Position numbers and translations under genes: made by a program. Below are positions 5,594 through 27,396 of a stretch of 27,456 nucleotides of DNA, piece by piece. Below the pieces are notes generated by a model that was not told where the DNA came from, ran no database searches, and saw only the letters and a program-made list of their open reading frames with translations. Position 1 is the first letter of the stretch, and the number at the start of each line of letters is the position of its first letter. The DNA comes from a virus, in IMG/VR virus record IMGVR_UViG_3300030106_002195, positions 3,831-31,286 of that record. One strand, written 5' to 3'.

Positions 5594-8500
5594 ATGCCAG
5601 AAATAAAGCATAATTTTACCGGTGGTAAGATGAATAAGGATGTAGATGAAAGACTTATTCCAAACGGACAATATAAAGACGCTATGAACATACAAGTGTC
5701 AACGTCAGAAGAATCTGATGTTGGTACTGTTCAAAATATATTGGGTAACGTGCCTGGTTGTAGTTATACTTTTAGTTCTGGAAATAAAATTGGTAATAAT
5801 CCTATACCTATAAACTCTAAAGTAATTGGCTCTGTTTCTGATGAAAAAAACGATACTTTATATTGGTTAGTTGCTGGAAATGATGGTAGTCCTTTATCAA
5901 CTTATCAACCAGGTGATTCTTTAAAAGATATGATTATGCGAACAAACGCTAATCATATAAGTGGAACTAGTTGCGAGCCAGTTTTTGTAGACACATACGC
6001 GTTTGTATCAGGTGTTAGTTTAGTAGATCCATTAACTGGTGCGCCGGTTAATGATGGAAATTTTGATAGTTTAATATTAGATATAGAAAACATACAATTA
6101 GGTTGGAGTATAACTGGTATTGATACTAATAATGACTTAAGTAATACAGTTCAAGTAACTGGTTTTAAAGATACAGATTCTGTAGTTACTACAATAGAGG
6201 TCACTTCTTCAATGTCTAATCCTATTGATTATTATGGACCAGAAACTTTTGGACAACAAGATTTAGATTCTTTATCTTCATCAGGCGTTAGTGGTGGAGC
6301 TACGGCTACTACAGCAACTGTAATAGATGGTATTTATTTACCACTTGTTTATAATACTAGTACAGACCAGTGGGTCCACACGTCAACTACGTCAATTTAT
6401 TCTACACTTGCTAACCAAGTATACATAGGTACAGACAATATAATTAATCCAAATAATCTTATAGGCAAAGAAGTAAACTTTTTTGTAGACAATGAAGATG
6501 GTACTTTTCAGTTGTCAAATACAGCTCAATTAATTGGACCTGGTTTTACTGTTTATAGTCCATTACCATTTCTTCCCAGTGGAACACTTATTAAAACTTG
6601 TGCTCTTATTCCAGGTACTTGGTCAAACCCACTGTTACCCCCAGTAACTAATGGTGTTACTAATACAGATCCGTGGCCTAACTTTATTTATAGATTAGAA
6701 CTTTGGGATGGTACAAATGATGTTAATTTTCCAGATTTAAACGCTACAACAGTTGATAATTGGAGAGCTGAAGATATAGCAAATCTCTTTGATCCTATTA
6801 GCTACCCATCGCCAGATCCAATCTTTGCTTTTGGTAGACTTTGGCAAGGTAAGGTAATTGACATGATAGTAAATAGAGGCCCTACTGTAACTAATATAAC
6901 AAATAATATATATAACTTAAGTTTACCTCAAGACATAAGCAATTATGTTATAAGTCCAAATCAAGAAGTAACTCTTACATCTGGCGAAACTACACTAACA
7001 GGTTTTGCAAGTTCTTCTACATTAGCAAATCCTGGGGTCAACGGAGGATCTTTAACTGTTGTAGATGCTAATGGAAATCCATTATTATTCCCACCAGATA
7101 GTGGTGATATAATAATAAGTTTTACAACTTTAACAGAAGTTACTTTTAATCAAACATTAAATTTACCAGCTGGTGGAATACAAGGTGGTTCTTTTAGCTG
7201 GGATAGAATTTTAATTCAAAAACCTAGGGTTTTAAATTTTGAACAAAATAATCTTGTTACGGGATTAAATATTGTTGATGATATGTTGTTCTGGACTGAC
7301 AATAACACAGAGCCTAAAAAAATAAATATATCACGTAGTGTAGCTGGTACTGAAAGTGATGGTATGACTCATACTAATTTTATAAACTACGATAGAAATA
7401 TAACAAATACTTCAAACAAAGTACTAGCTAGAGAAGAACATATAACTGTTATTAAAAAACCACCAACACAAGCGCCAAGTTTAAATATGACTGCTGGTAG
7501 ACAAGGTAATTTATTTGGTAAAATTAGTTATAATTTTGATTCAGAAGCGGTAGGTAATAATATAAGTATTGAAATAATTACTGATAATGTTGAAGAAGAA
7601 TTACAATATATTGTTGGTGATATATTAATTTTAAAACAAGGTGTTAATAATACAGATTTTAATTTTCCAATAACAGATTATGATATTAGAATTAAAATAA
7701 ATGAAATAATTCCACCATCAATACCTAATGACCCATTAACATATTATTGTGAAGTTTTATCTATAAGTCCTGGTATAATTGGTAGTAATGAACAGCCTTA
7801 TGGCGTTGATTTAGATAAATCCGGAGAAAAACTATATAGTTTAAAGTTTCCTAGGTTTGCTATTAGATATAGATATAAAGATGGTGAATACTCTTCGTAT
7901 GGGCCATTTTCTAATGTTGCTTTTATACCTGGAGAGTTTAATGTAGACGCAGAATCACAATATCTACCTAATAAAGGTTATAATTTAGGTATGGAAAACA
8001 CTTTAACGGAGTTAGAGTTAACTAATATAATACAAGGTGATATACCTGATGGCGTAGTTCAAGTTGATATATTATATAAAGAATCTAACTCACCTAATGT
8101 TTACACTGTAGATGAGATAAAACCTAGTGATACTTATTGGACTTCTAATTCTTACCAAATAAAAGAAGAAACAATAAAAGCTGTAGTACCATCAAATCAA
8201 TTGTTAAGACCGTTTGACAATGTGCCTAAAAAAGCTTTAGCTCAAGATGTAACAGGTAATAGAATTGTATATGGTAACTATGAGCAAAATTATAGTCTAG
8301 AAAACGCAACACGACCAAAGTTTAAAGTTAAACTAAAAGATAGGTTTGACTCTTTTGTAAAAAAATCAATAAAGTCATTAAGAAAATATCAGTTAGGCGT
8401 TGTTTATTGTGATCAATATAATAGACAAACACCAGTATTATCTGATTCTAGTGGTTCTATACGTGTTGATAAAATTGATTCTGTAAAAACTAGTTTGCTA

Positions 8501-11500
8501 GAAGTATCAACAGAACACCCGCATCCTTCTTGGGCTACTCACTATAAATTTTACATAAAAGAAACTTCTACAGAGTATTACAATCTTTCTTTGGATAGAC
8601 ATTTTGAAGCCAAAGATGGTAATATTTGGTTGTCATTTGCCTCTAATGACAGAGATAAAGTAGATTTAGAAACTTCTTTATATTTAAAAAAGAGATTTAA
8701 TTCAGAAGACCAAGAGACTAGTAATGAAAAATATAAAATCTTAGATATTAAAAATGAAGCACCAGAATATATACAAACAAGAAAAGTTATTTTAGGAAAA
8801 GTAACAGACAATAATGCTGGTAATAGATTTTTTACTAATGATGATTTTTTACCAGGAACTAATAAAGAGTCTTTTCGTATTTTACAAAGTGGATTAGATG
8901 GTACTATTTTAGAAGATTTTCATAAAAACCAAACAGCAACTGGTAATGGTGGTCCAGTCGTTAAAAATCCTCTTTATATTAAATTATCACAAGTAAACGC
9001 TGCTGGCATTAAAGTAGGTCTTGAAACAAAATGGTATGAAGTAGACAATGTTAAAAAACTTGAGCTTACTGGTGCTGATGAGTATGAAATAAGATTAAAA
9101 GATAAATTTGAAAAATTTGACGATTGGATAGTAAGAGGCGCGCCAAGTACTTCCGCTACTACTGCAAATTTAATAAACCTTACTGGTGATGGTAAAGGTT
9201 TGGTTTTTGAAGTAGCACAAGATATTGTACAAAACAAAGCTGCTTTTCAAGGTAGATTTTTTGCTAAAATATTAAGAGATGTAAATGTAGAAGATGCTAT
9301 TGTAAAACAAGGCACACTTGGAAATGTTGGTGTTATTGCGCAAGTAAATGCTGGTTATATAAAAAATTATACAACTGAAACACCTTCACCTAATGGAATT
9401 TCTGCAAACCAAATAACATCACATAAAACTTTTGTATCAACTTTAATAACTGGTTTTAATAATGCTGGTTTTACTTGGCCTCGTTGGTACAAGTTTATAG
9501 CTACACAACCTAGTAATATTCCAGCAACTAGTGGCCCTCCAGTTGGTAATCCTGTAAATAATGACGCTTATTGGAGTAGGCTTACTTGGGAGACTATAAG
9601 TCAACAATTAGATGCCTCTGTGTCATCTACTAACAATGGTTCTAGGTGGGTTTTAGATGAAGCTTTTTCTGCTGGAGAAGATCCACTATGGAATCAAAAT
9701 GGTGGTGAATATATTGACGAAAGTGCTGATGATGATTCATACGATGCTTCAAGTGGTCATTATATTTACGGTGGTAGTTCTGTTTTTTATGGCGGTGTTT
9801 CTTTTACTCCTGGTTATACAAATCCTCTTACTATTGATCAAAATAAATTGTCTAGTATTCCTTGGGCACCTATTACAAAACAAGATGGATTAGGACATGG
9901 TAGTGATAGCTCACAATATGAGTTTTATAGTACCGGTCGTGGTGTAGATACATCTTTAAATACTATAGACTTATCATATATAGGACCAGGTAGAAATGAG
10001 TCTAGTGATTTTTCAGGTGGTTCTACTACTTATATGAATATATATGATAATGACTGGCCTATGGATAATTGGAAAAATTTATGGTCTCTTAGTCCTTCTC
10101 AAGGAGTTTTTGATGAAGAAGCTAAAAATTTTGCTGATAATTTAGTAGGAGGTAAACATATAAGATTTACTAACGATGGTGATGGTACTATTTGGAAAAT
10201 AAAACATGTAGAAATATTTAACAAATGGAATTATTCTGATAACAAAACGGATTATCAATATCCTGATGGACAGCCTTATTATAATAGAACTAACATTCAG
10301 ACACTTACGAATGATCAAGCAAAAATGAACGCTCATGCAAATTGGGCTTATTTTAATCGTAGAATTACTTATAGATTACAATTAGAAAGCATACAATTAC
10401 CAAATGCAAAATTAGGTTATAATGGATACACTCCTTTTATTACTGATGGTACAACTATAGATACAAATTTATGCCCAATAGAAATAGTAGAATTAGATTA
10501 CATTAAAGATACTAATGATATACCTTTTCCAGAAAACCCAGCTATATTTGAAACAGAGCCAAAAGAAGATGTTGATTTAAATATATTTCATGAAGCTAGT
10601 GACACTATACCACTTGCTTTGAATATAAATGGTAGTCAATTTGCTCCAGCTGGAAGTGAAATAAGATCACTTGGGTTTGCTACTAAATCAGGAACTTTAT
10701 TTGGACAAATTAATCTTGAAACACCATATATAGGTACAATAGATGGTCTTGGTCCAAGAGTACTTAGATGGCTTGGTAATGGTATTGTAGAGTCTACTAT
10801 AAGGTTTTATGGAGCTAATGTAGGTGACACATTTACATTTACTAGATCAGATGGTACTTATACAGTTGGAAGATTAGTGTCTTTAGGTAATGGAGATGCT
10901 ACTAGTGTTCAAGCTACTATACATGCTGGAACAGGTAATTCTATACAAGCTTCTTATTTTGCTAAATTTGAAATATTAAATACGGTTGGTCTTGGTTGGC
11001 ATAATTGTTTTTCTTTTGGAAACGGCGTTGAATCTAATAGAGTTAGAGATACTTTTAACTCTGTGTTTATAGATAAAGGTCCAAAAGTATCAGCAACTCT
11101 TGATGATAAATATGACTTAGAAAGAAGACATTATGGTTTAATATACTCTGGTTTATATAACTCTATGTCTGGTATAAATAATTTAAATCAATTTATACAA
11201 GCTGAAAAAATAACAAAAGATATAAATCCTAACTATGGTAGTATACAAAAATTACATACTAGAAACTCTGACTTAATTACCTTGTGTGAGGATAAAGTTT
11301 TAAAAATATTATCAAATAAAGATGCTGTATTTAATGCTGATGGAAATACAAACTTAACTGCTACAAGTAAAGTATTAGGACAAACAATTCCTTTTGTTGG
11401 TGAATATGGTATATCTAAAAATCCAGAATCATTTGCTTCAGAATCTTATAGAGCTTATTTTACAGATAAAGTAAGAGGTACTGTTATGAGATTATCTATG

Positions 11501-12181
11501 GATGGTTTAACGCCAATTTCTGAACATGGTATGAAAGACTGGTTTAGAGATCACTTAAAATTATCTTCTGAACTAATAGGTAGTTATGATGATTATAAAG
11601 ACGAATACAACATCACATTGAATATGACTTCTAATGCTGATGTTGATGGAAGAAGCGATAGTAAAACAGTTACTTTTAAAGAGAGTACAAAAGGTTGGGT
11701 AAGTTTTAAATCTTTTTTACCTGAAAATGGTATTAGTTGTGCTAACAAATATTACACATATAAAAATGGTCATTTGTACATACATCACGATGAAAATCAA
11801 GAGCGCAATACTTTTTACGGTATTTTTACAGCAACAAGTGTTACTGCTGTTTTAAATAGCACGCCTGGTAGTATTAAAGATTTTTATACTTTAAATTACG
11901 AAGGGTCACAAGGTCATATGAAAACAATAACAAGTTACAGCACGTTTGATAGAACATCTTGGAATGGTGTTTATGGTCCTAATGGTGAGCCTGTATATAC
12001 TACAGTTACAGATACAATAGGTGCAGCTGAAATATCTGGTTATAATTTGCAAAATTTACAAGCAAAAAATGGTTGGTATGTGTCTAAAATAGAAACTGAT
12101 AAAGAAGAGGGAAGCATTAAAGAGTTTATTGAAAAAGAAGGTAAATGGTTTAATTATATAAAAGGTAAAGAATGGCTATAA
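5594..12181 (+). CDS. Very large nozzle or tail-stabilisation-like protein (2195 aa)
   Basis: The N-terminus has HNFTGGKMNKDVDERLIPNG followed by YKDAMNIQVSTSEE, the opening I recall from phage stabilisation (P22 gp10-like) and nozzle-type proteins in marine phages. Blade-like elements recur: LNIVDDMLFWTDNNTEPKKI near residue 557, and VGEYGISKNPESFASESYRA near 1935 followed by YFTDKVRGTVMRLS. Both suggest a beta-propeller scaffold. Long Thr/Ser/Asn-rich beta segments between them, for example residues 150-550 and 1240-1650, look like insertions. At 2195 residues it is several times larger than P22 gp10 (about 470) or T7 gp12 (about 790). It has no signal peptide or membrane segment. It starts three bases after the ring-like gene, and its last bases overlap the next start. 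It probably forms the tail tip that holds the channel closed and carries fibres. Confidence 0.6.
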   Translation: MPEIKHNFTGGKMNKDVDERLIPNGQYKDAMNIQVSTSEESDVGTVQNILGNVPGCSYTFSSGNKIGNNPIPINSKVIGSVSDEKNDTLYWLVAGNDGSPLSTYQPGDSLKDMIMRTNANHISGTSCEPVFVDTYAFVSGVSLVDPLTGAPVNDGNFDSLILDIENIQLGWSITGIDTNNDLSNTVQVTGFKDTDSVVTTIEVTSSMSNPIDYYGPETFGQQDLDSLSSSGVSGGATATTATVIDGIYLPLVYNTSTDQWVHTSTTSIYSTLANQVYIGTDNIINPNNLIGKEVNFFVDNEDGTFQLSNTAQLIGPGFTVYSPLPFLPSGTLIKTCALIPGTWSNPLLPPVTNGVTNTDPWPNFIYRLELWDGTNDVNFPDLNATTVDNWRAEDIANLFDPISYPSPDPIFAFGRLWQGKVIDMIVNRGPTVTNITNNIYNLSLPQDISNYVISPNQEVTLTSGETTLTGFASSSTLANPGVNGGSLTVVDANGNPLLFPPDSGDIIISFTTLTEVTFNQTLNLPAGGIQGGSFSWDRILIQKPRVLNFEQNNLVTGLNIVDDMLFWTDNNTEPKKINISRSVAGTESDGMTHTNFINYDRNITNTSNKVLAREEHITVIKKPPTQAPSLNMTAGRQGNLFGKISYNFDSEAVGNNISIEIITDNVEEELQYIVGDILILKQGVNNTDFNFPITDYDIRIKINEIIPPSIPNDPLTYYCEVLSISPGIIGSNEQPYGVDLDKSGEKLYSLKFPRFAIRYRYKDGEYSSYGPFSNVAFIPGEFNVDAESQYLPNKGYNLGMENTLTELELTNIIQGDIPDGVVQVDILYKESNSPNVYTVDEIKPSDTYWTSNSYQIKEETIKAVVPSNQLLRPFDNVPKKALAQDVTGNRIVYGNYEQNYSLENATRPKFKVKLKDRFDSFVKKSIKSLRKYQLGVVYCDQYNRQTPVLSDSSGSIRVDKIDSVKTSLLEVSTEHPHPSWATHYKFYIKETSTEYYNLSLDRHFEAKDGNIWLSFASNDRDKVDLETSLYLKKRFNSEDQETSNEKYKILDIKNEAPEYIQTRKVILGKVTDNNAGNRFFTNDDFLPGTNKESFRILQSGLDGTILEDFHKNQTATGNGGPVVKNPLYIKLSQVNAAGIKVGLETKWYEVDNVKKLELTGADEYEIRLKDKFEKFDDWIVRGAPSTSATTANLINLTGDGKGLVFEVAQDIVQNKAAFQGRFFAKILRDVNVEDAIVKQGTLGNVGVIAQVNAGYIKNYTTETPSPNGISANQITSHKTFVSTLITGFNNAGFTWPRWYKFIATQPSNIPATSGPPVGNPVNNDAYWSRLTWETISQQLDASVSSTNNGSRWVLDEAFSAGEDPLWNQNGGEYIDESADDDSYDASSGHYIYGGSSVFYGGVSFTPGYTNPLTIDQNKLSSIPWAPITKQDGLGHGSDSSQYEFYSTGRGVDTSLNTIDLSYIGPGRNESSDFSGGSTTYMNIYDNDWPMDNWKNLWSLSPSQGVFDEEAKNFADNLVGGKHIRFTNDGDGTIWKIKHVEIFNKWNYSDNKTDYQYPDGQPYYNRTNIQTLTNDQAKMNAHANWAYFNRRITYRLQLESIQLPNAKLGYNGYTPFITDGTTIDTNLCPIEIVELDYIKDTNDIPFPENPAIFETEPKEDVDLNIFHEASDTIPLALNINGSQFAPAGSEIRSLGFATKSGTLFGQINLETPYIGTIDGLGPRVLRWLGNGIVESTIRFYGANVGDTFTFTRSDGTYTVGRLVSLGNGDATSVQATIHAGTGNSIQASYFAKFEILNTVGLGWHNCFSFGNGVESNRVRDTFNSVFIDKGPKVSATLDDKYDLERRHYGLIYSGLYNSMSGINNLNQFIQAEKITKDINPNYGSIQKLHTRNSDLITLCEDKVLKILSNKDAVFNADGNTNLTATSKVLGQTIPFVGEYGISKNPESFASESYRAYFTDKVRGTVMRLSMDGLTPISEHGMKDWFRDHLKLSSELIGSYDDYKDEYNITLNMTSNADVDGRSDSKTVTFKESTKGWVSFKSFLPENGISCANKYYTYKNGHLYIHHDENQERNTFYGIFTATSVTAVLNSTPGSIKDFYTLNYEGSQGHMKTITSYSTFDRTSWNGVYGPNGEPVYTTVTDTIGAAEISGYNLQNLQAKNGWYVSKIETDKEEGSIKEFIEKEGKWFNYIKGKEWL

Positions 12182-15060
12182 ATAAATTTGGAAAAGCTGG
12201 CTTTGATAGCGCTGACAAATCTTTTCAAGGATTAGGCACTTTAAATGGCATAAGTCAATTTACTGTATTTGGTTGCACAGATGACACGCGGTTTAGTTAT
12301 ACTGCTCATCCATTTACTAACGCGGTTCAAGATTACTATAGTTTTTTTAATTTTAATCCAGGTGCTAATACCGATGACGGTAGTTGCGCACCTACTGTTT
12401 TAGGATGTTTAGATACTTCTAATGCTAATTATGACGCTAGTGCAAATCTTGACGCTATACCTACTCTTTGTGAGGTTTTAGGTTGTATTGATTCAACAGC
12501 ATTTAATTACGATCCAAACGCAAATACTGACGATGGTTCATGTGTTCCTGTAATTTTAGGTTGTATAGATGGTTCTCCAGACACAAATGTTGCTTCATAT
12601 CCAAATCACTCACACCCAACATCATCATCACCCACCTTGACAATTAATGCTTATAATGGTAGTGTTGATAATACTGATTACTCTTTGTATGTAAATTATG
12701 ATAATACTGCTAATACTGATGATGGAAGTTGTATCCAAAGGGTATATGGTTGTATGCAGTTAAACGCTTTAATGTATAATTATGATCCTTTAGCTAATAC
12801 AGAGCCACCTGGTTTTTGTTTGTTACCTATACTTGGTTGTATGGATACTGTAGCATGTAATTATGAGTCTGCTGCTCAACTAGATGATGGGTCATGTGAA
12901 TATTGTAGCGATAATGGTAGTGTAATTAATATTAATGGGGCTGATAATTATGATGGAGCAAGCTGTGGTTCTGATTCAGGTGGTTGTCAATATTGTACTT
13001 ATGTAGATATACAAAACAGCTCTACAATATCATACTCTAATTCTGTTCATTTATTCTGGACAATGCCAACGTCTTTACCTGCTCCTTTTACTAGTTCAGA
13101 TGGTAGCGTTGCACCCGTAGTAAGTTATGAAATTAGATACCAAAATAGAGATATATCTGGAAGCAGTTTTATTACCGCTACTAATAACTTATCACCTAAT
13201 ACAACTGATTATCATGTTAGTGGATTAGATTCTGACACAAGATATAGATTTCAAATAAGAACACATTGTGCAAATACTCATTCTGGTCCTTATAGTGGCG
13301 CTGCTATTCAGAAAAAAACTTTACCTCCAAGTGGTTGTACGGATCCAAATGCAAATAACTATAATTCTAATCCTGCTACTATTGATGATGGTAGTTGTGT
13401 ATATGTAGGTTGTACTGATCCTCTTGCTTTTAACCCAGTTACTGGTATAGCAGGAAAGACTGAGTTTACACATCCAGACGGCACAACTTATTATGCATCT
13501 ATTGATGATGGTTCATGTATTCCTGCTGTGTATGGCTGTACAAATCTAGCTGCTGGTAGTTTATTTAATTCCTTAGCGAATATTGATGATGGAAGTTGTC
13601 CAACTGGTTGTATGGATAGCGTAGCAAATAACTATGATTCAAGTGCTATTATACATGACGATAGTTGTACATATGAAGGTTGTACAGATCCTACAGCTAG
13701 TAATTATAGCTTTGCGGATAGTGTTGGATCTACAGCTGGTACAGTAAATCTAAACACAACTAATTATGGTTACGGTATTATTCCTAATGTACCTGAAAAT
13801 GATAAATATGTATCTAGCGCATCTGGGCTAACTGAAACAGGTACTGTTACTGATGATGGTAATTGTACTTATGTTATTGAAGGTTGTACAAATCCAAATG
13901 CAAATAATTATTTTGCAGCTGCAACAACACCTTGTAATTTAGGTGACAGTGATAATGATTGTTGTGCTTTTGGAAGTATTAACGCTGGAACAATAGGAGT
14001 TCGCTATAATTTTACAGGATTAGATCCACTTGTTACACCACCAGTTGGTACTCCTGATTTAGGCTGGGTTAGAGAAGGTTGTATGGATTCTTCGTTTGAT
14101 AATTATAACATGACAGCAGCAGGAGCAAATCAAACAGCAACAGTGCCTATTTATTCAGATCCCCATGTGTCTTTAATGAATCCAGGAACTTCTGAAGGTT
14201 GTTTAAACTTTAATACAGATCCTGTTACTGTTAACACTATATTTTCACAGGGTCACCCTTCATTTAGTAATAATTTACTAGAGCAAGCTGGTGGAAGTAA
14301 TACAGCTGCTGGCGTACCTCAACAGTCTCATGGGATAAAATTTCAATTAGCTTGTAATAACAGTAGTGGAGGATGTCCAGATTTAAATTTTGGTTTTGTT
14401 GATCCTACCGCTGCAACAACGTCTACTTTAGCTTCAAATGATAAGTTACTAGTTGAAGTATATAATATGGATACTGGCTCCCGTGTTGTAGATTTTGGTG
14501 ATTCATCTTTACAAATTTCTTCTGACAATTCAAATGGTCTGTTTGGGCCAGCAAACGCAGGTCCAGTTGATTTTTGGGGTGTAAATGTTAGTACTGGTTA
14601 TTTAGTAATCCCAAGAAGTACTGCACCTTCACCGACTGCAATTGATTTTAGTAATCCTACAAGTGGAGGAGCGGGTCAAAACATTTCTGGTCAAGCTGCT
14701 TTTAACAATACTTTTGTTATACCCGCAAAATGGTTAGCGTCTAAACCAAGATTTTTATTTGATTATGTAGAAGATATTAGTAATACTAATCAGCCTAAAA
14801 CTGATCTTATAAGTGACGCTCAAAATGGTATTTATTTTAGTGGCGGTTCAAGTAATATTGCGTTCATACAAACTTTACGTATAACATTTAAAACAGGTTT
14901 TGGTAATATAATATCTGGACATGATCTTGACGTTAAAGTTGGATGTACAGATCCTAACGCTAATAACTACTGTCCAAGTTGTAATGCTATGCAAAAATTC
15001 TCTCAATATAATCCTGGTCAAGCAATAAGTAGTAATAACTGGACTATATGTGATTATTAA
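12172..15060 (+). CDS. Cys-repeat/FnIII surface protein, candidate receptor-binding protein (962 aa)
   Basis: At least a dozen units begin GC(T/M/I/L)D and most end DDGSC, for example residues 104-124 and 388-409, with spacers of very different length. They are interrupted at about 277-385 by a fibronectin type III-like domain (YEIRYQNRDI, then the DSDTRYRFQIRT strand). The stretch 680-923 is nearly free of cysteine and beta-rich. One last unit closes the protein (GCTDPNANNYCPSCNAM). Such repeats are known from secreted proteins of marine Flavobacteriia and their phages; calcium binding or disulfide pairing is likely but unproven. There is no signal peptide, as expected for a virion part. The ATG lies inside the end of the nozzle-like gene, a ten-base overlap. 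I infer a tail fibre or adhesin. Confidence 0.65.
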   Translation: MAINKFGKAGFDSADKSFQGLGTLNGISQFTVFGCTDDTRFSYTAHPFTNAVQDYYSFFNFNPGANTDDGSCAPTVLGCLDTSNANYDASANLDAIPTLCEVLGCIDSTAFNYDPNANTDDGSCVPVILGCIDGSPDTNVASYPNHSHPTSSSPTLTINAYNGSVDNTDYSLYVNYDNTANTDDGSCIQRVYGCMQLNALMYNYDPLANTEPPGFCLLPILGCMDTVACNYESAAQLDDGSCEYCSDNGSVININGADNYDGASCGSDSGGCQYCTYVDIQNSSTISYSNSVHLFWTMPTSLPAPFTSSDGSVAPVVSYEIRYQNRDISGSSFITATNNLSPNTTDYHVSGLDSDTRYRFQIRTHCANTHSGPYSGAAIQKKTLPPSGCTDPNANNYNSNPATIDDGSCVYVGCTDPLAFNPVTGIAGKTEFTHPDGTTYYASIDDGSCIPAVYGCTNLAAGSLFNSLANIDDGSCPTGCMDSVANNYDSSAIIHDDSCTYEGCTDPTASNYSFADSVGSTAGTVNLNTTNYGYGIIPNVPENDKYVSSASGLTETGTVTDDGNCTYVIEGCTNPNANNYFAAATTPCNLGDSDNDCCAFGSINAGTIGVRYNFTGLDPLVTPPVGTPDLGWVREGCMDSSFDNYNMTAAGANQTATVPIYSDPHVSLMNPGTSEGCLNFNTDPVTVNTIFSQGHPSFSNNLLEQAGGSNTAAGVPQQSHGIKFQLACNNSSGGCPDLNFGFVDPTAATTSTLASNDKLLVEVYNMDTGSRVVDFGDSSLQISSDNSNGLFGPANAGPVDFWGVNVSTGYLVIPRSTAPSPTAIDFSNPTSGGAGQNISGQAAFNNTFVIPAKWLASKPRFLFDYVEDISNTNQPKTDLISDAQNGIYFSGGSSNIAFIQTLRITFKTGFGNIISGHDLDVKVGCTDPNANNYCPSCNAMQKFSQYNPGQAISSNNWTICDY
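12271..15057 (+). repeat. Degenerate GCxD...DDGSC protein-repeat array
   Basis: The repeat is visible at protein level and diverged in DNA. Unit starts fall near residues 34, 78, 104, 130, 193, 222, 388, 413, 455, 479, 503, 571, 636 and 924. The usual form is GCTDPxAxNYxxxAxxDDGSC, with insertions of 10 to 60 residues in several units. Two blocks (34-276 and 388-about 680) flank the FnIII-like domain, and a single unit caps the C-terminus. Confidence 0.8.
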
Positions 15061-18580: not shown

Positions 18581-20173
18581 ATGGCAGCAGATCCTACATT
18601 AACAAGAGCAGCTTTTGCAGAAGCAACTTCAAGGGCAAGAGCAAATGTTCAAAACTTAAAACCTTTATATGATAGTACTTTAGGTATGGTGCAAACTGGT
18701 CAAAGGTTTGTTGACAACTTAATGAATCAAATCCAAAAAAGAAACGAAATAGAGCGTATTGCAAAAGACAAACAATTGTCTGGCTTTAATAAAATAACAG
18801 ATCAAACGTATGCAAGCTTATACTCAATGGATGAGCCAATGCCAAACAAAGTAGTTAACGCGTTACGTACTAGAATTAAAGAATTAAAAGAAGAGTTTGA
18901 ATTAGTTAATACTTACGGTAAAAATGATACTGAAGAAAATAATAACGCTAGAATTAGGTTGTTAGGTGAATTAAAAAGAATTACAAGTCAAACTATAGAT
19001 ACTAGAAAGAAGTTCATGGAAATGGCTGGTGATTATCCTGATTGGAATAGTTCTAGAATTAAAGCGGAAAATATTGATACTTTAAAATCTTTTCTTGATC
19101 TTAAAAATATGGATATGAATGATGATATATCTGTAGTATATACTAACGAAGGATTAACTTTTATAAACGCTGTGACAGGTAAAAGTTTTACAGCGGCACA
19201 AATGAGAGAAGCAATGCCTGTTATAAATAAAGCACCTCAAACACTAGCTACTAGTAGAGCTAACGATGCTATGGCTTTAGCAGCGAGAAACGCTGAAAAT
19301 GGTGAGGCAAGTATTTATAGTCAAGATGATTTAAATATTTATAACTCTACTAAAGCTGATGTTAAAGGAGCTTTTTTAGATCCAATAAAAACAAATGAAG
19401 ACTACGTAAATGCTGCTACAATAAAACTATTGCCAAAAGCACAAAGCTTAGAACAAGCTTTAGAGACTTATAGTGTAATACCAGTAGAAATTATCAAAAA
19501 CATGTATTATACACAAGATAATAACATAGTGCCAATAGGTGAAACTTTTGCTAGATTAGATAGAGATAATGATGGTGATATTGATAAAGATGATTTTTCT
19601 GGTATGTCACAGGAAGAATTTGAAAAATTTAGAGCTAATCATAAAGAAATGATAAATGCTATAATAAGACCTGATCATCCAGCTTTTAATTTAGAAACTT
19701 CTAAAGAAATATTAGGTAACTATTATGCTAATATAGAAGAACAAATTTATACAGACACTTACAATATTGCTGTTGAAAATAAAAATAGAAGAGAACGTAA
19801 AGAAGATGAGTTGACAGATTCTCAAGCGGTTAGAGATAGAATTATAAATGCTTTTAAATCTGGAAAAATTGATGGCTTGCCATTACCTTATGGTAGATCT
19901 ATAAGATATAATACTGAAGAAAAAATGTATTATTTAAGAAAAAGTGATGGAACAGAAATTGCTAAATTTAAAACACCTGATAATGATATATTAATGCAAA
20001 TATTAAGTGCTCATGGTGTTAGGGAAAAAGATTTAGTTAATGTAGATTTTAGTAAAACAATATTTGAATCTAATATTGAGTTTACAGATTTTGATCCTAA
20101 TGCGGAAAAAGATAAAGAAAACTTTTATAAAAACATGAAAGGATTTCAGGATTATTTAAATACAAAAAAATAA
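18581..20173 (+). CDS. Internal virion protein with EF-hand-like loop (530 aa)
   Basis: The protein is mostly alpha-helical and charged, with no membrane segment. The N-terminal 150 residues are helical, with a coiled-coil-like patch (RTRIKELKEEFELVNTYGKN). Residues 327-338 read DRDNDGDIDKDD, close to the EF-hand/dockerin loop DxDxDGxIxxx(E/D), and are followed by a helix (SQEEFEKFRANHKEMINAII). A C-terminal globular part has YGRSIRYNTEEKMYYLRKSD. It lies between the gp14-like gene and the giant, and its stop shares a base with the giant's ATG (TAATG), so the two are probably translationally coupled and made in proportion. I infer an ejected internal protein comparable in position to T7 gp15. 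The loop suggests calcium binding, untested. Confidence 0.65.
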   Translation: MAADPTLTRAAFAEATSRARANVQNLKPLYDSTLGMVQTGQRFVDNLMNQIQKRNEIERIAKDKQLSGFNKITDQTYASLYSMDEPMPNKVVNALRTRIKELKEEFELVNTYGKNDTEENNNARIRLLGELKRITSQTIDTRKKFMEMAGDYPDWNSSRIKAENIDTLKSFLDLKNMDMNDDISVVYTNEGLTFINAVTGKSFTAAQMREAMPVINKAPQTLATSRANDAMALAARNAENGEASIYSQDDLNIYNSTKADVKGAFLDPIKTNEDYVNAATIKLLPKAQSLEQALETYSVIPVEIIKNMYYTQDNNIVPIGETFARLDRDNDGDIDKDDFSGMSQEEFEKFRANHKEMINAIIRPDHPAFNLETSKEILGNYYANIEEQIYTDTYNIAVENKNRRERKEDELTDSQAVRDRIINAFKSGKIDGLPLPYGRSIRYNTEEKMYYLRKSDGTEIAKFKTPDNDILMQILSAHGVREKDLVNVDFSKTIFESNIEFTDFDPNAEKDKENFYKNMKGFQDYLNTKK

Positions 20174-23100
20174 TGGAGAAATATATAGTTAACGGCCAAG
20201 GTTTTAATGTTAAGCTTGAAGACTTAGATTTATTTATGCAAAAATTTCCTAATGCTAAAAAGTATATATCGGGAAAGACAGACGACTTCGCGATAGCGGA
20301 CCCAATGGCGGAGTCAAACGTTATGGGGTTCGACTTGGACAATGGTTTTTTGGCGCAACAAGAAGATGAGGAAGAAAGAAGCGCTTTAGATATATTAAAA
20401 AGTTATCCAGCTAGTTTCTACTTAAGAGGTACTGAAATGATAAATAACTTTGTAAAGTCTTATGAAACTGGAGAATCACCATCAGCAGTTGGAAGAGTTG
20501 CTGTAGAAATAGCTATGGAAAATCCTTTTGTAGCTGCATATGGTTACGCTGCAGAATATCTTAGAGGTAAAGGTTATGATATACCAAAAGAATTTATTGG
20601 TATGGATTTAACTACGCCAAAAGAACGTAGAGAAATATATGAAAACTTTATGTTAGACGCTAGGGAAAAAGGTATACCACTTGAAAAAGCACAAAGATTA
20701 GATCCTACTAATAAAATAAAATTTGAAGATACCATAGATTTTTTTCAAAAACACACTTATCAACCTAAAGACAAAGAAGGTAAGCCAATAGATTACATGG
20801 CTTTGTGGAGTGAAGGAAAAATATTAGAAGGAACAGATGCTTTTCTTAATGAAGCCGCTGGAGCTATACCTTCTTTGTTAGTTAGTAGAAGTCCCTATGG
20901 AACTGGAGCTGCGGTTATTGGCGTTGGTGCTTATATGGATAACTTTGAAAGAGAAATGTATAAAAGAGGTTTTAATGATGAAACAACCAGAAGCCAAGTT
21001 GTAAATGATTCTATGATAACAGGTGGTTCTGATTTTGTTACAGAATTTATAGGTGGTAGAATAATAAATAAACTAGCTAAATCTGGTTTAGGCAAAGATG
21101 CAGTAAAAGAACTTTTAACAACAAGCGTTCCAATGGCAATGTTAAAAAAGTTTGGACTTGGTTATTTATCTGAGTTTGTTACTGAAGGCGCTGCTGGAGT
21201 AATATCAGAAAGATCTGATAAGTGGGTTTACGATGATGTTGTTACTTATCAACAGTCTCTTAGAACTTTTTTTAAAGATGGTTTTTTAGGTGGTTTTTTA
21301 GGTGGCCCAGCGGTAGCAATGTCAACAGCAAACAAAAGTCAAATATATGAATACGTTGCAGATAGTCAATACAAACAAACTCAGTTAGGTATAGAACAAC
21401 AAATAATAGCTTTAACTAGAGATTTAGACCAAGCTGAAGGAAATCAAAAAGAAACTATACAGAAAAAAATAGATAGTTTAAAACAAGAAAAGCAAAAAAA
21501 CAAAGAAAACAATTATGCTTTTTTTGATAACATGACTCAAAAACAAAAAGAAAATTGGGCTAGTAATATAGATAAACAAAATGAAGCTTTAGATTTAATT
21601 TACGGTAAAAACAGCGAAGAAACTAAAAAACAAGCAAAAGAAGATTATGAAAAAGCTGTAAAAGCTAATGAAAAATTTTTTAACGGTTTAAAAAGAAACT
21701 ATGACCCAGAAGTAGAAGCTATAATAGGTAAACAAATAAGAGCTTATCAAGAAATACAAAAACAACGTGGTGTTTTTGGTTTTAATAAAGACAAGTTAAA
21801 TGTAAAATTTGTAGAAAACGAAGCTGAAATAGAAGCGTTAGAAAATAAATTTAAAGGTTTTAAAAGAGCTGATGGTATATTTTACGATGACTCAGAAGGT
21901 AAGCCTACTATATATATTAACTCTCAAGTTGCAGCTGCAACATCACAAACTAATGTTTTAGGTCATGAATATTTACATGCTATAGTATCTAGAGCTTTTT
22001 CAGAAGGTATCGGTAAATCTGCTTTAAAAAATTCTGTTTCTTCTTTTGTTAAATATTTAAATGACATTGGGCAATCTGACTTAGTGGCTGATATAGAGGC
22101 TAAAATAGCAGTCAATTACGATGGTTTAGATCAAGATGGTGATATTATAAGAGATGTTGATGGTTTAGTAAAAACCAAAAAAGCAAAAGATCAAGAAGAA
22201 TATTTTAACATATTTTCAGATTTAATAAAAGATAATAAAATAGAAGCTGTTGAAAATAAATCATCAGGTATAAAAAACTCTTTTAGAGCCTTACATAGAG
22301 GGTTAGGCTTTGGTAGTGTTGATTTTCAAAATGGACAAGAGGTTTTTGACTTTTTAGTAGACTATAACACTAACATGAATAGAGCTAGTAAACTAGGTAA
22401 ACTAACATCTAGAGGTATAGCTGGTGTTAAAATGAAAGGATTAGAGCCAAAAAAAGACAAACGTTTTAAAAAAGGTACTGACACTTTAAAAGAAGAAATA
22501 ATCAAAAAATCTGTATCTGTAGAGCGTAGAAATCAAATATCTAGTAGCGTACAAGAAATAGGTAGTACTTATAGTTTTGAAGGCGGTAAAAAAGCGTGGG
22601 ATGAAGGAGGCGCTGATCAAGCTATAACTGAAATAAAAACAAATAATTATTTAGATGATTTAATTGCTGCCAAATACAAGGCTGATAGAGTGCCAGTTGA
22701 CTTTGTAGATAAGGTATACGCAGAGCTTACAAGTCATATTAAAAACTTTAATCCAGAAACAAATGATAATTTATTTGGTTGGATAAATAGTCAGTTAGCA
22801 AATAAAGCTGGTAATGTTTATAATCGAGAATACAAACAGGTTGAACAAGAGAAAACATCTAAAGATGTAGATGATAGAACAAAAGAAGGTGAAGTTAAAG
22901 TACAAGTTGCTGCAGAAGTAGATCCTACATTAGAAGCGTTAGAAACAGAAGATATATCACCTGCTGCACAAGCTAGAAAAGCTGCAGAAAAAGCAAAACC
23001 AAAAATACAGAAAGAGTCTGAATTTAGAAAAGCTATAGGCATTGAAACCGATAGTAAAATATATAACGAAGTTTTAGATGGTGCTCGTAAAGCTTTATTA

Positions 23101-26100
23101 AGAGCTTATGAAGCTGGTACATCAGTTAGAAATATACAAAGAAAACTAAGAGACGAGGCTAATGTATATTTATTCAAAACAGTTAAAAACTTTTTAGGAA
23201 CTAAAGATTATGTTAACAACTTAAAAAAGTTTAGAGAGCCTATAATGAAAGTTATGTTTACTTCTGATTTAGTGCAGCTAGAAAGAAACGTACCACAAGA
23301 TGAAAGAGTGTTTACTAAATTTGTTAAAAAACTCACATCGAAACAAGAAGTGCAAGATGCGGTTAATCAAAAATTATTACCACCCGAGGCTTTAAATATT
23401 ATAGATAAAGGCACGGCTGTTAGCTTGTATGAAAAGAAAAATGTATCAGAAGCTAGTTTTATGTCATTTTTTGATATACCTGCTTTTAATCCTGTTACTA
23501 AACAAAGATCTGGTAAACGTGGTACTAGAAAAGATCAATTAGCGAAATATATGGCTGGCGCACTGTCTTACGATGCAACAATGCAAGTTGCTCAAGAGCC
23601 TGATGTTATGCAGCGTAGAGCGGACTTGGCTGGATTAAAAGGTGAGACTTTGGCTAAAGATAATTTACAAGTTTTAGCTACTGAAATAGGTAGAAATCCT
23701 AATATTAAGTTTAGTATTAACCAAGAACAAGTTGTTCAAGGTATAGATATAATATTTGGTAAAGACAAAAATGATGGTTTTGGTGGTAAAAATTGGCAAA
23801 AATACTATGACAATAAAAACATAAGTAATGAAACTAAATATGCAGCGCAAGAAGAATTTTTAAATAGACTTACGGAAGAAAACGATGCTATAAGTCAAGA
23901 GGAACTAGATAAATTAGATCGTTTTAAAAACGGTAAAAAAAGAAAAACAAAAATTCGTACTTATAAAAAATACGAAATAATAGCTAAACAAAGAGCTGAA
24001 AAAATATTAAGTAACTTAGGTTTAGATAAACAAGGCTACAACGTAGAAAATCTTTCAGAAAAAGATAATAATCCAGATATTAGAATTACTAAAAACGGTA
24101 AAACAGCATTTACTATTGAAATAAAAGGAAATACAGCTAGAGGTGTTTCCGTTTCATTTAACTATAAACAAGACGTAAAAAGGTTAGTTAAAGGTAAAAA
24201 AGCAGCTGAAAAACAAGAAACTGAAAACTATAACAAGCAAGAAAAATCTTTAATTGAATTTTCAAATAAAATTTTTGAAAAAATGATTAAGCTTGTTGGA
24301 CCAAGTGAAGTTACATATTCTAAATTTAAAAACTTACAAATAAGTGTAGAAGGTTATAATAAAATAATAGAAAAAGGTTTACAGTTAGAAATACACGGAA
24401 AACAGTTTTTTATAACTACAAGTGATTTTGCTAATTCATACATGCAGAAAAAAGGTAAAGACGGTAGCTCTAGAACTAGTAATGCTATTGATATAGGTAA
24501 TGCTGGTATGTTTTTAATGGATAATAACTCTATAATGCAAGTAGAGGGTTTAAATAATTTTTCAGATCAAAAAGTTTTAATACCACTTACCGCTAGAATA
24601 AACTTTGGACGAGTAAACAAAGCAGGAACACATAGGACTGTATCTATTAGAGTAGAGCCTCAAATAAACTCTGTATTTTTTGATAAGCAAAACATTAGTT
24701 TAATAAATAAGTCTGGAAATAAAAACTTTAAAATAAAAGAAAGTTTAACAAAAGAAGTAGGTACTGGTAGAAACTTATTTAAAGCATCTATATCTGACAT
24801 GTCCAAATCAAATGGTGCTAGTATATTTGACTTTGATGAAACAGTTGGTATAAGTGAAAATTTTGTTATAGCTAAAAAAGATGATATAACAGAAAAAATA
24901 CCATCTTACGAGTGGCCACTTGTTGGTGAGAATTTAAAAGAGCAAGGTTATGAGTTTGATTTTACTGATTTTAACAAAGTAACAAAAGGTAAACCAGGTC
25001 CGTTGTTACAAAAAATGAAAAATCAAATAGAAAAGTACGGGTCAAAAAACGTGTTTATACTCACTGCTAGAGCACCTGAAAGCGCGGTTGCTATTCACGA
25101 ATGGTTACAATCAGAAGGTGTTAACATACCTTTAGAAAACGTTACTGGGTTAGGTAATAGTACAGGTGAAGCTAAAGCAACTTGGATATTAGATAAGTAT
25201 GCAGAAAAAGGTTATAATGACATATACTTTGTAGATGATGCTTTACAAAATGTACAAGCTGTTAAAAACATGTTTGATCAACTTGACATAAAAGGTAAAT
25301 CTGTTCAAGCTAAAGTTAAGTTTAGTAAATCAATGAATGATGACTTTAATAATATACTAGAAGAAGTAACTGGTATTGAAGCTGAAAAACGTTTTATGCA
25401 AACAAAAGCTAGAAAACGTGGTGCTAATAAAGGTAAGTTTAGGTTTTTTATACCACCATCGCATGAAGATTTTACAGGTTTATTATATAACTTTATGGGT
25501 AAGGGCAAACAAGGTGATGGACATAGAGACTTTTTTGAAAAAGCTTTAATTAGACCTTTAAATAGAGCTTATAGAGAGATAGATACAGCTAAACAAGCTA
25601 TAGCTAATGATTACAAAGCGCTTAACAAAAAGTTTCCAGATATTAAAAAGAAACTTAGAAAGAAAACACCCGACGGAGATTTTATTATTGAAGATGCTAT
25701 AAGAATTTATTTATGGAACAAACACGGTTATAATATAGAAGGTTTAAGTGATATAGATAAATCTGATTTAGTTGAGTTAGTTATGAATGACTCTCAACTC
25801 AGAGAATATGCTGAGACAGTTAATATAATATCAAAACAAGATACATATGTAGAGCCTGGTAAAGGCTGGGAAGGTGGTAATATACAAACAGACTTAATAG
25901 ACGCTACTGGTAGAGTTGGTAGAGCAGAATATTTTAAAGAGTTTAATGAAAATGCTGAAATATTATTTTCTGAAGAAAACTTAAATAAAATTGAAGCTGG
26001 TTATGGGGCTGATTTTAGAAGCGCGCTAGAAGACATGCTTCATAGAATTAAAACTGGTGTTAATAGGCCAAAAGGTCAACATGCTACGGTTAACAAACTA

Positions 26101-27396
26101 ATGAATTATTTAAATGGTTCTGTTGGTACTGTTATGTTCTTTAACGTTAGATCTGCAATATTACAGCAAATGTCTATTGTTAACTATATTAACTTTGCTG
26201 ATAACAATATTTTTGCAGCTGCTAAAGCTTTTGCTAATCAAAAACAGTATTGGAAAGATTTTGCATTTATATTTAACTCTGACATGTTGAAGCAAAGACG
26301 TGGTGGTATTGGTACAGATATTAACGGTGCTGATCTTGCGCAAGCTGTCAAAGGGTCAAAAGAACCAACTAAAGTTGTTATAAGTAGATTATTAAAACTA
26401 GGGTTTTTACCTACACAAATTGGTGATAATATTGCGATTGCTACAGGTGGTGCTACTTTTTATAGAAACAGAGTAAATAAGTATATAAAAGATGGTCTAA
26501 GTCAAAAAGAAGCTGAAACAAAAGCGTTTACAGATTTTCAAGACTTAACACAGTCAACCCAGCAGTCTTCAAGACCTGATATGACATCGCAGCAGCAAGC
26601 TAGTTGGATAGGTAAATTAATATTAAATTTTCAAAACATTACATCGCAGTATAATAGAATAATTAAAAAAGCTGCTTTAGATATTGGTAAAGGTAGAATA
26701 TCACCGCCATATACAACCAAAGCACAAAGTAACTTAGGTAATTTATCTAAAATATTATATTATGGTGGTATACAAAACGTTTTATTTTATAGTTTACAAA
26801 CAGCTTTGTTTGCTATAATGTTTGATGATGAAAAAGATGAAGATCAAATATTAAAGAAAAGAGAAAGAGTTATACAAGGTACTATAGATTCTATATTGAG
26901 AGGTTCTGGTATATACGGTGCTGTAGTTTCTACGCTTAAAAACGCTGTTAGAAAATGGAAAGAACAAAGAGAAAAAGGTTACAATAAAGATGAAAGTGGA
27001 GTTTTAATGGAGTTGTTAAACTTTTCACCGGTTGTTGGTATTAAATCAAGAATGATTGTTAATGCTGAAAAAACACTTAACTATAATGAAAATGTTATAA
27101 GTGAAATGGAAACTTTTGATGCTGATAATCCAATGTGGTCTTCTGTAACTAACTACACACAAGCCTTAACAAACTTTCCAGCAAACAGACTCTATCAAAA
27201 AAGTATAAACATGCGTAATGCTCTTGATAAAGACTATACCAATTTCCAAAGAATAATGTTTTTTAGTGGTTATACAACTTGGAGTTTAGGTTTAGGTGAC
27301 GCTGAAGCTGTTGTAGAAGCAAAAGAAAAAGCTAAAATAAATAAACAAAATACAAAAAAGAAAAAGAAAAGACAAAATGTATATAGTTTAGATTAG
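20173..27396 (+). CDS. Giant polyvalent-type ejected protein (2407 aa)
   Basis: Regions in order: a short N-terminal motif (VNGQGFNVKLEDLDLFMQKF); a Gly/Ala-rich region about 60-390 resembling ejected phage proteins; a Lys/Glu coiled-coil stretch about 390-510; an HEYLH zinc-peptidase motif at 598-602; a sigma-region-2-like segment about 835-880; a PD-(D/E)xK nuclease-like core (P1301-D1302, E1316, K1318); HAD phosphatase motifs (D1553, D1555, T1557; T1631; K1668; D1688-D1689); and a conserved C-terminal region about 1740-2370, with GANKGKFRFFIPPSHEDFTG and PTQIGDNIAIATGGATFYRN. A hydrophobic stretch about 2190-2217 could meet the membrane. The tail is a Lys-rich run. Length, position and domain mix fit 'polyvalent' proteins injected with phage DNA. 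Activity of each domain is unproven. The start is fixed by the TAATG junction. Confidence 0.7.
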   Translation: MEKYIVNGQGFNVKLEDLDLFMQKFPNAKKYISGKTDDFAIADPMAESNVMGFDLDNGFLAQQEDEEERSALDILKSYPASFYLRGTEMINNFVKSYETGESPSAVGRVAVEIAMENPFVAAYGYAAEYLRGKGYDIPKEFIGMDLTTPKERREIYENFMLDAREKGIPLEKAQRLDPTNKIKFEDTIDFFQKHTYQPKDKEGKPIDYMALWSEGKILEGTDAFLNEAAGAIPSLLVSRSPYGTGAAVIGVGAYMDNFEREMYKRGFNDETTRSQVVNDSMITGGSDFVTEFIGGRIINKLAKSGLGKDAVKELLTTSVPMAMLKKFGLGYLSEFVTEGAAGVISERSDKWVYDDVVTYQQSLRTFFKDGFLGGFLGGPAVAMSTANKSQIYEYVADSQYKQTQLGIEQQIIALTRDLDQAEGNQKETIQKKIDSLKQEKQKNKENNYAFFDNMTQKQKENWASNIDKQNEALDLIYGKNSEETKKQAKEDYEKAVKANEKFFNGLKRNYDPEVEAIIGKQIRAYQEIQKQRGVFGFNKDKLNVKFVENEAEIEALENKFKGFKRADGIFYDDSEGKPTIYINSQVAAATSQTNVLGHEYLHAIVSRAFSEGIGKSALKNSVSSFVKYLNDIGQSDLVADIEAKIAVNYDGLDQDGDIIRDVDGLVKTKKAKDQEEYFNIFSDLIKDNKIEAVENKSSGIKNSFRALHRGLGFGSVDFQNGQEVFDFLVDYNTNMNRASKLGKLTSRGIAGVKMKGLEPKKDKRFKKGTDTLKEEIIKKSVSVERRNQISSSVQEIGSTYSFEGGKKAWDEGGADQAITEIKTNNYLDDLIAAKYKADRVPVDFVDKVYAELTSHIKNFNPETNDNLFGWINSQLANKAGNVYNREYKQVEQEKTSKDVDDRTKEGEVKVQVAAEVDPTLEALETEDISPAAQARKAAEKAKPKIQKESEFRKAIGIETDSKIYNEVLDGARKALLRAYEAGTSVRNIQRKLRDEANVYLFKTVKNFLGTKDYVNNLKKFREPIMKVMFTSDLVQLERNVPQDERVFTKFVKKLTSKQEVQDAVNQKLLPPEALNIIDKGTAVSLYEKKNVSEASFMSFFDIPAFNPVTKQRSGKRGTRKDQLAKYMAGALSYDATMQVAQEPDVMQRRADLAGLKGETLAKDNLQVLATEIGRNPNIKFSINQEQVVQGIDIIFGKDKNDGFGGKNWQKYYDNKNISNETKYAAQEEFLNRLTEENDAISQEELDKLDRFKNGKKRKTKIRTYKKYEIIAKQRAEKILSNLGLDKQGYNVENLSEKDNNPDIRITKNGKTAFTIEIKGNTARGVSVSFNYKQDVKRLVKGKKAAEKQETENYNKQEKSLIEFSNKIFEKMIKLVGPSEVTYSKFKNLQISVEGYNKIIEKGLQLEIHGKQFFITTSDFANSYMQKKGKDGSSRTSNAIDIGNAGMFLMDNNSIMQVEGLNNFSDQKVLIPLTARINFGRVNKAGTHRTVSIRVEPQINSVFFDKQNISLINKSGNKNFKIKESLTKEVGTGRNLFKASISDMSKSNGASIFDFDETVGISENFVIAKKDDITEKIPSYEWPLVGENLKEQGYEFDFTDFNKVTKGKPGPLLQKMKNQIEKYGSKNVFILTARAPESAVAIHEWLQSEGVNIPLENVTGLGNSTGEAKATWILDKYAEKGYNDIYFVDDALQNVQAVKNMFDQLDIKGKSVQAKVKFSKSMNDDFNNILEEVTGIEAEKRFMQTKARKRGANKGKFRFFIPPSHEDFTGLLYNFMGKGKQGDGHRDFFEKALIRPLNRAYREIDTAKQAIANDYKALNKKFPDIKKKLRKKTPDGDFIIEDAIRIYLWNKHGYNIEGLSDIDKSDLVELVMNDSQLREYAETVNIISKQDTYVEPGKGWEGGNIQTDLIDATGRVGRAEYFKEFNENAEILFSEENLNKIEAGYGADFRSALEDMLHRIKTGVNRPKGQHATVNKLMNYLNGSVGTVMFFNVRSAILQQMSIVNYINFADNNIFAAAKAFANQKQYWKDFAFIFNSDMLKQRRGGIGTDINGADLAQAVKGSKEPTKVVISRLLKLGFLPTQIGDNIAIATGGATFYRNRVNKYIKDGLSQKEAETKAFTDFQDLTQSTQQSSRPDMTSQQQASWIGKLILNFQNITSQYNRIIKKAALDIGKGRISPPYTTKAQSNLGNLSKILYYGGIQNVLFYSLQTALFAIMFDDEKDEDQILKKRERVIQGTIDSILRGSGIYGAVVSTLKNAVRKWKEQREKGYNKDESGVLMELLNFSPVVGIKSRMIVNAEKTLNYNENVISEMETFDADNPMWSSVTNYTQALTNFPANRLYQKSINMRNALDKDYTNFQRIMFFSGYTTWSLGLGDAEAVVEAKEKAKINKQNTKKKKKRQNVYSLD
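20268..20345 (+). other. GC-rich patch inside the giant gene
   Basis: Bases 20281-20340 contain 34 G or C of 60, against 18 of 60 in 20401-20460 and 16 of 60 in 20221-20280. Codons rare elsewhere here (GCG, GAC, TTC, GGG, TCG) cluster in it. Arms 20284-20291 (gacttcgc) and 20308-20315 (gcggagtc) can pair over 8 bp with one wobble and a 16-base loop. The reading frame is intact across it, encoding an acidic linker-like segment. Confidence 0.7.
21280..21303 (+). repeat. Tandem 12-base repeat encoding GFLGGFLG
   Basis: The unit ggttttttaggt occurs twice in tandem and in frame, giving GFLGGFLG at residues 370-377. It forms a glycine-flanked hydrophobic turn at the end of the Gly/Ala-rich region of the giant protein. 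Confidence 0.6.

Follow-up and report, generated by a model that had tools for sequence, protein, structure and literature searches.

A giant, probably virion-packaged protein of uncultured phages with a constant HAD phosphatase-type core and exchangeable neighbouring domains

The last gene of a phage virion cassette encodes a protein of 2407 residues that ends in a predicted HAD phosphatase and a long helical C-terminal region, both found in every relative compared, while the domains that precede them vary from one relative to another. We favour, with modest confidence, the reading of this giant as a virion-packaged polyvalent protein whose peptidase would free effector units, the HAD phosphatase being constant and the early effectors exchangeable. 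Phage giants of the polyvalent kind, with processing by a zincin, have been described before; the present family stands out by its constant phosphatase core, by a sigma-2-like module that some members have and others lack, and by a slot whose content can be swapped.

The window, i.e. the whole stretch of 27,456 nucleotides that was analysed, covers bases 3831-31286 of a 31,286-base IMG/VR virus record and carries the virion cassette on a single strand (Table 1).

Table 1. Features of the giant gene and of the two genes upstream (nucleotide positions in the window, residues of the giant protein)
Feature	Residues	Position	Strand	Basis
Small ejection-type (internal) protein candidate, 238 aa		17853..18569	+	Synteny only
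Second internal protein candidate, 530 aa		18581..20173	+	Synteny only
Giant polyvalent ejected-type protein (putative)		20173..27396	+	ORF of 2407 aa from an ATG, without internal stop
Gly-rich hydrophobic helical domain	222-379	20836..21309	+	Profile matches to virion giants of cultured flavophages
Zincin-like (gluzincin-type) metallopeptidase, predicted	540-750	21790..22422	+	Conserved residues and model
HExxH motif (HEYLH)	598-602	21964..21978	+	Sequence and conservation
Sigma-2-like helical segment, T4 gp55 type	783-894 (core match 842-888)	22519..22854	+	hhalign, phrog_234 and model
Helical/mixed domain (putative), travels with the sigma-like segment	967-1182	23071..23718	+	Found in 20/81 proteins
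PD-(D/E)xK nuclease-type core, predicted	1263-1345	23959..24207	+	Residues and model pattern
HAD phosphatase domain, predicted	1547-1714	24811..25314	+	Motifs and fold match
Constant all-helical C-terminal region	1718-2391	25324..27345	+	Tile conservation and model

Domain architecture among relatives

The giant was compared with the best 80 IMG/VR loci for the whole protein, which makes 81 proteins with that of the window, and domains were counted by dividing the window protein into tiles and searching with an iterated profile of each tile. Complete relatives measure 2252-3612 aa, and at least 541 stretches in IMG/VR encode the C-terminal region. The family is mostly marine, to judge from its neighbours. 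A tblastn search of the 50,697 cultured-phage records of INPHARED gave no match to the giant, no cultured member of the family was present in the collections searched, and no description of it was found in open-licence papers. Some relatives lie on contigs (L101-L111) of MAGs labelled Maricaulis, Aliivibrio, Woesearchaeota, Ilumatobacteraceae or Bacteroidota. Several of these are probably misbinned phage contigs, and because the taxa are incompatible with each other (archaea, Aliivibrio, Bacteroidota), they are not taken as evidence of a host.

The tile counts form a gradient, from the HAD domain and the C-terminus (81 of the 81 proteins) through the zincin (about 55), the Gly-rich domain (36), the sigma-like segment (27) and the helical domain that follows it (20) down to the PD-(D/E)xK core (5). 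All 69 full-length members have their domains in collinear order; the ends are constant and the middle is variable, the stretch from the zincin or the sigma module to the HAD domain differing in both length and content. The earlier note had read four catalytic or regulatory signatures in one frame, and all four are present in an ORF without interruption, so that at least two domains of unrelated activity, as expected of a polyvalent protein, do share one polypeptide (zincin, sigma-like, PD-(D/E)xK and HAD). They are nevertheless unequally general. The full set was found in the window protein, in L002/L003 (one sequence type), L004, L007 and L087, which does not fit one fixed four-enzyme machine: only the HAD domain and the C-terminus are invariant and the zincin is near-constant, whereas the sigma-like segment is optional and the PD-(D/E)xK domain an occasional insert. 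The same note had named two observations that would speak against it. One of them, a lack of conservation of the motif residues in homologues, can be set aside because each of the four signatures is conserved, or can be detected, among relatives. The other, a fold of helical structural repeats, describes the C-terminal region well and does not apply to the enzyme domains upstream of it.

Whole-protein scans of the 2407-residue sequence against Pfam and PHROGs returned nothing significant, and neither did PDB sequence searches with the C-terminal, HAD, zincin, sigma and PD-(D/E)xK profiles. The zincin was recognised by motif and fold topology; the giant has no match to the Pfam PolyVal and LPD families. 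A structural model of residues 540-1715 (pLDDT 76, pTM 0.39) gave confident zincin, sigma-like and HAD units, the relative placement of the domains being unreliable; in Foldseek searches with this model, matches outside the HAD domain were individually sub-threshold.

In the zincin, H598, E599 and H602 are conserved in 54/54 relatives and the downstream Glu676 in 51/51. The model of this domain (pLDDT mostly 80-95) shows the HExxH helix together with three strands, and Glu676 sits on a conserved helix further along, the arrangement that defines zincin-like peptidases. The PD-(D/E)xK core displays E1268, P1301-D1302 and E1316-I-K1318 on the helix-strand order predicted by the model. These residues are conserved in 5/5 members (E1268, P1301, D1302, E1316, K1318) and are also present in L087, which was found by a separate scan with the PD-(D/E)xK region. 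No solved nuclease was matched by the PDB profile search or by the fold search, in which the domain was included within the model of residues 540-1715. With five distinct members, this predicted domain is rare, an occasional insert in the variable slot.

The long conserved C-terminal region pointed out by the earlier note proved to be, with the HAD domain, the invariant part of the family. Residues ~1548-2390 were found in 81/81 proteins; within the C-terminal region, the first two tiles are present in all 81 and the last one in 78, some loci being cut by contig ends. A model of the HAD domain with the C-terminus (pLDDT 83.5) resembles in fold the C-terminal halves of phage polyvalent proteins (Foldseek E 1e-12 to 1e-5, TM ~0.4-0.55). 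Identification of this region as LPD38 was rejected: there was no Pfam match to PF18857, and hhalign against seven LPD38 proteins gave a probability of 0.1%.

Virion cassette and probable packaging

The giant gene closes the cassette, with capsid-type and other virion structural families upstream. The capsid-type gene product shares 40-45% identity with those of the elemovirus, Panino and ctfjg026, 35% with that of phi38:1 and 26% with that of phi18:3, and these capsid relatives are flavophages of the Pervagoviridae/Pachyviridae type. As the earlier note had proposed, the giant directly follows two internal-protein-like genes, of 238 and 530 aa, and the trio is syntenic with known ones. The cassette ends with a ~200-aa protein, a ~500-aa protein and a giant in phi38:1, phi18:3, elemoF and Panino as well, and a trio of the same sizes is found in JC1. 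By position and size, the 238-aa candidate corresponds to phi38:1 gp099 (200 aa), phi18:3 gp120 (227 aa) and elemoF gp20 (205 aa), and the 530-aa candidate to phi38:1 gp100 (549 aa), phi18:3 gp121 (499 aa) and JC1 gp68 (510 aa). The latter candidate also contains, at residues 321-342, a single EF-hand-like loop (DRDNDGDIDKDD; Pfam EF-hand E 0.004).

Two other genes of the window deserve mention. Positions 5594-12181 encode a structural protein of 2195 aa (phrog_14478, E 4e-130) that exceeds its positional counterparts in Cellulophaga phages (1324-1612 aa); its weak match to the C-terminal muzzle domain of crAss phages (E 0.01) is the sole sign of crAss-like kinship. Positions 12172-15060 encode a protein of 962 aa with about ten 'GCxDxxAxNY ... 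DDGSC' repeats and a fibronectin type III domain. These repeats look like those of secreted proteins or adhesins, here in a phage tail-region gene.

The giants of Cellulophaga phages phi38:1 (gp101) and phi18:3 (gp123), Flavobacterium phage elemoF (gp18) and Maribacter phage Panino occupy the same gene position and share the ~160-aa Gly-rich domain, as indicated by profile matches of residues 222-379 to elemoF gp18 (E 4.5e-24), Panino (E 4.7e-24), phi38:1 gp101 (E 2.6e-18) and phi18:3 gp123 (E 2.8e-10). ElemoF gp18 possesses in addition a homologue of the giant's zincin (E 5e-7). On the other hand, these cultured flavophage giants show no detectable match to the HAD domain or to the conserved C-terminus. 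A DUF3293 domain lies inside elemoF gp18 (L089; residues 1323-1392), ~150 residues before its HExxH site, and is another payload domain of such giants.

Packaging of the giant in the virion and its ejection are likely, given that its gene closes the virion cassette and that its ~160-aa domain is homologous to that of syntenic virion giants. The packaging that the earlier note had suggested thus gains support both from synteny and from a domain held in common with a virion protein annotated from MS/MS. Alternatively, the giant could be made late and act, unpackaged, inside infected bacteria, where capsid maturation would be one conceivable task. We consider this very improbable, as residues 222-379 are homologous to phi18:3 gp123, whose annotation derives from MS/MS of virions, and the synteny with virion giants is strict; among the latter, the positional counterpart in Burkholderia phage JC1, gp69, which follows proteins of 196 and 510 aa, was detected in virions with 51 unique peptides (PMC9144972). 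A packaged giant could still be mainly a mechanical ejection protein, forming a channel as T7 gp16 or crossing peptidoglycan, whose zincin and helical parts alone are important, the other domains being remnants or spacers. Its place as the last of an ejection-type trio, the Gly-rich domain with the helical C-terminus and the different contents of the slot among relatives would all agree with such a role. We nevertheless find it unlikely, since decaying domains would lose their active-site residues first, while the HAD active site is invariant in 81 proteins that have diverged to ~41-45% identity in this region and the zincin site is invariant in 54.

The sigma-2-like segment and the predicted HAD phosphatase

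The sigma-like segment is probably homologous to the sigma-2 part of T4 gp55, judging from profile comparisons. Its tile profile was aligned by hhalign with a gp55 alignment built from six phages and scored 30.7 (E 2.9e-4), its core match corresponding to gp55 profile positions 66-112, the sigma-2 core-binding segment. In T4 gp55, residues ~42-122 form the sigma-2 part with the RNA polymerase core-binding motif (PMC2988020). A sigma-like NFNPE is found at residues 858-862, with P861 conserved in 27/27 members, and the helices are modelled with a pLDDT of 87-97. The late sigma factor family of gp55 type, phrog_234, matches 3 of the 22 members of the sigma tile (best E 2.6e-6; E 0.099 for the window protein) and also L043 and L005 at the segment (best E 6e-8). 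Sigma factors account for about 8 of the first fifty PDB rows and for 8 in BFVD in the Foldseek search, all sub-threshold. By this match to the sigma-2 core-binding part, the segment can be assigned to the gp55 type with moderate strength. The segment could instead be an unrelated helical linker, resembling sigma-2 by convergence and making no contact with RNA polymerase, which we regard as a real possibility without favouring it: the profile comparison assigns a probability of only 41% to the match, which spans 47 columns, and no match was obtained with Pfam Sigma70_r2, with PDB sigma chains or with the phages' own sigma factors. Chance likeness of this kind is difficult to reconcile with the controls, in which none of 300 column-shuffled gp55 alignments reached 30.7 (maximum 16.2) and the reversed alignment gave 12.3, with the noise-level scores of the other domains of the family against gp55, or with the rank of phrog_234 as the top recurrent match of the tile among 38,880 families.

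Standalone sigma-70 family genes of ~250 aa were detected in 7 of 50 relatives' records (L194-L201), and these phages therefore have a free sigma factor as well; as a source of the sigma-like segment they were discarded, having no detectable relationship with it. No multisubunit RNA polymerase (PF00562) was found in 35 relatives' records, compared with 14/14 in the control, and the host RNA polymerase is thus the likely target of the segment. Pfam and PHROG searches of the giant proteins for an RNA polymerase domain gave no match either, and a search for T7-type RNA polymerase was uninformative, its controls being themselves silent.

The HAD domain displays DFDET (1553-1557), TAR (1631-1633), K1668 and DD (1688-1689), i.e. 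the DxDxT, T/S, K and D(D) motifs of the superfamily on a Rossmann-like fold. In motif I, D1553 is conserved in 70/71 proteins, D1555 in 71/73 and T1557 in 70/73, and all residues of motifs II-IV (T1631, A1632, R1633, K1668, D1688 and D1689) are conserved in 81/81. Its substrate is the least certain step that matters in the proposed mechanism. The top VIA-align match was the 3'-phosphatase of T4 Pnkp (PseT), alike in fold and motif layout (5uj0_B, Z 11.9 over 125 residues, rmsd 2.4 A; 1ltq, Z 11.1). In addition, three relatives (L059, L069 and L075) carry a polynucleotide-kinase-like P-loop domain (AAA_33/phrog_505) directly upstream of the HAD domain, in the order seen in T4 Pnkp, the window protein itself having no kinase. 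The fold and the three kinase-bearing relatives are the reasons for proposing an action on nucleic-acid ends. We consider it less likely, but a serious possibility, that the substrates of the domain are instead nucleotides or sugars, or else a signalling molecule, and that the giant rewires host metabolism instead of repairing nucleic acids. Many unrelated HAD phosphatases lie within 1-2 Z units of T4 Pnkp (Z 9-10.8), and direct sequence comparison with the latter found nothing beyond motif I; against this stand the first rank of T4 Pnkp and the kinase domains just described. Matches to phrog_415 were obtained in 32 of 50 relatives' records and also in 10 of 14 control genomes, and hence do not single out 3'-phosphatases. 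No RNA ligase was found. A full RNA-repair set was considered and dropped, as the match to an 'RNA ligase' family covers the P-loop kinase part only.

Proposed role at genome entry

What the analysis shows is the conservation of the sequence, its matches to known folds, the order of its domains and the synteny of its gene. On this basis, we propose that the giant is the largest of three proteins ejected together by a podovirus whose capsid gene relates it to phi38:1 and phi18:3 of Cellulophaga. To be packaged and to cross the tail and the inner membrane, the giant may rely on its Gly-rich N-terminal domain and on its helical C-terminus. The zincin would cut the giant into units, inside the head or on arrival, in line with the established proposal for polyvalent proteins (PMC5512222). 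Such processing is uncertain here because the virion RNA polymerase of N4 has an MPTase domain and is yet packaged unprocessed (PMC5512222). Among the units, the sigma-2-like segment might bind to host RNA polymerase at its clamp helices and skew transcription early in infection, the PD-(D/E)xK domain might cut host or rival nucleic acid, and the freed HAD phosphatase would have phosphate ends as its substrate, most likely the 3'-phosphates of nucleic acids that T4 Pnkp acts on, and might thereby mend breaks inflicted by the host on tRNA or DNA as infection starts. More tentatively, and with less confidence than in the overall reading, we suggest that a virion-delivered sigma domain of the gp55 kind, released by the peptidase, captures the host RNA polymerase at genome entry, beside a universal end-processing phosphatase.

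The earlier note had supposed that this set and order of domains might be a variant not yet described. The polyvalent proteins of Iyer et al. 2017 (PMC5512222) are, like the giant, multidomain products of the virion cassette that combine a zincin MPTase with unrelated enzymatic domains; that part is known, whereas the HAD phosphatase and the sigma-2 module are absent from their catalogue. T4 gp55 is a free protein of 185 aa with a sliding-clamp tail, made during infection, while here the segment is embedded in a giant protein of virion type. The N4 virion RNA polymerase is likewise ejected and of giant size, is equipped with an MPTase domain and takes part in early transcription (PMC5512222), but the protein of the window has a sigma-like segment in place of a recognised RNA polymerase domain.

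The phosphatase is present in 81/81 giants while its neighbour domains come and go, which points to a conserved need at entry, plausibly that of mending the ends left where host defences cut nucleic acids. Certain phages carry their own RNA polymerase into the cell for immediate transcription. If our reading is true, a virion-delivered sigma domain would be an alternative to a virion RNA polymerase for early transcription. Hundreds of uncultured ocean phages have relatives of this protein, in which the tail end is constant and other parts can be exchanged; the giant would then represent a modular early-takeover kit, carried in the virion without a virion RNA polymerase and common to many uncultured marine phages.
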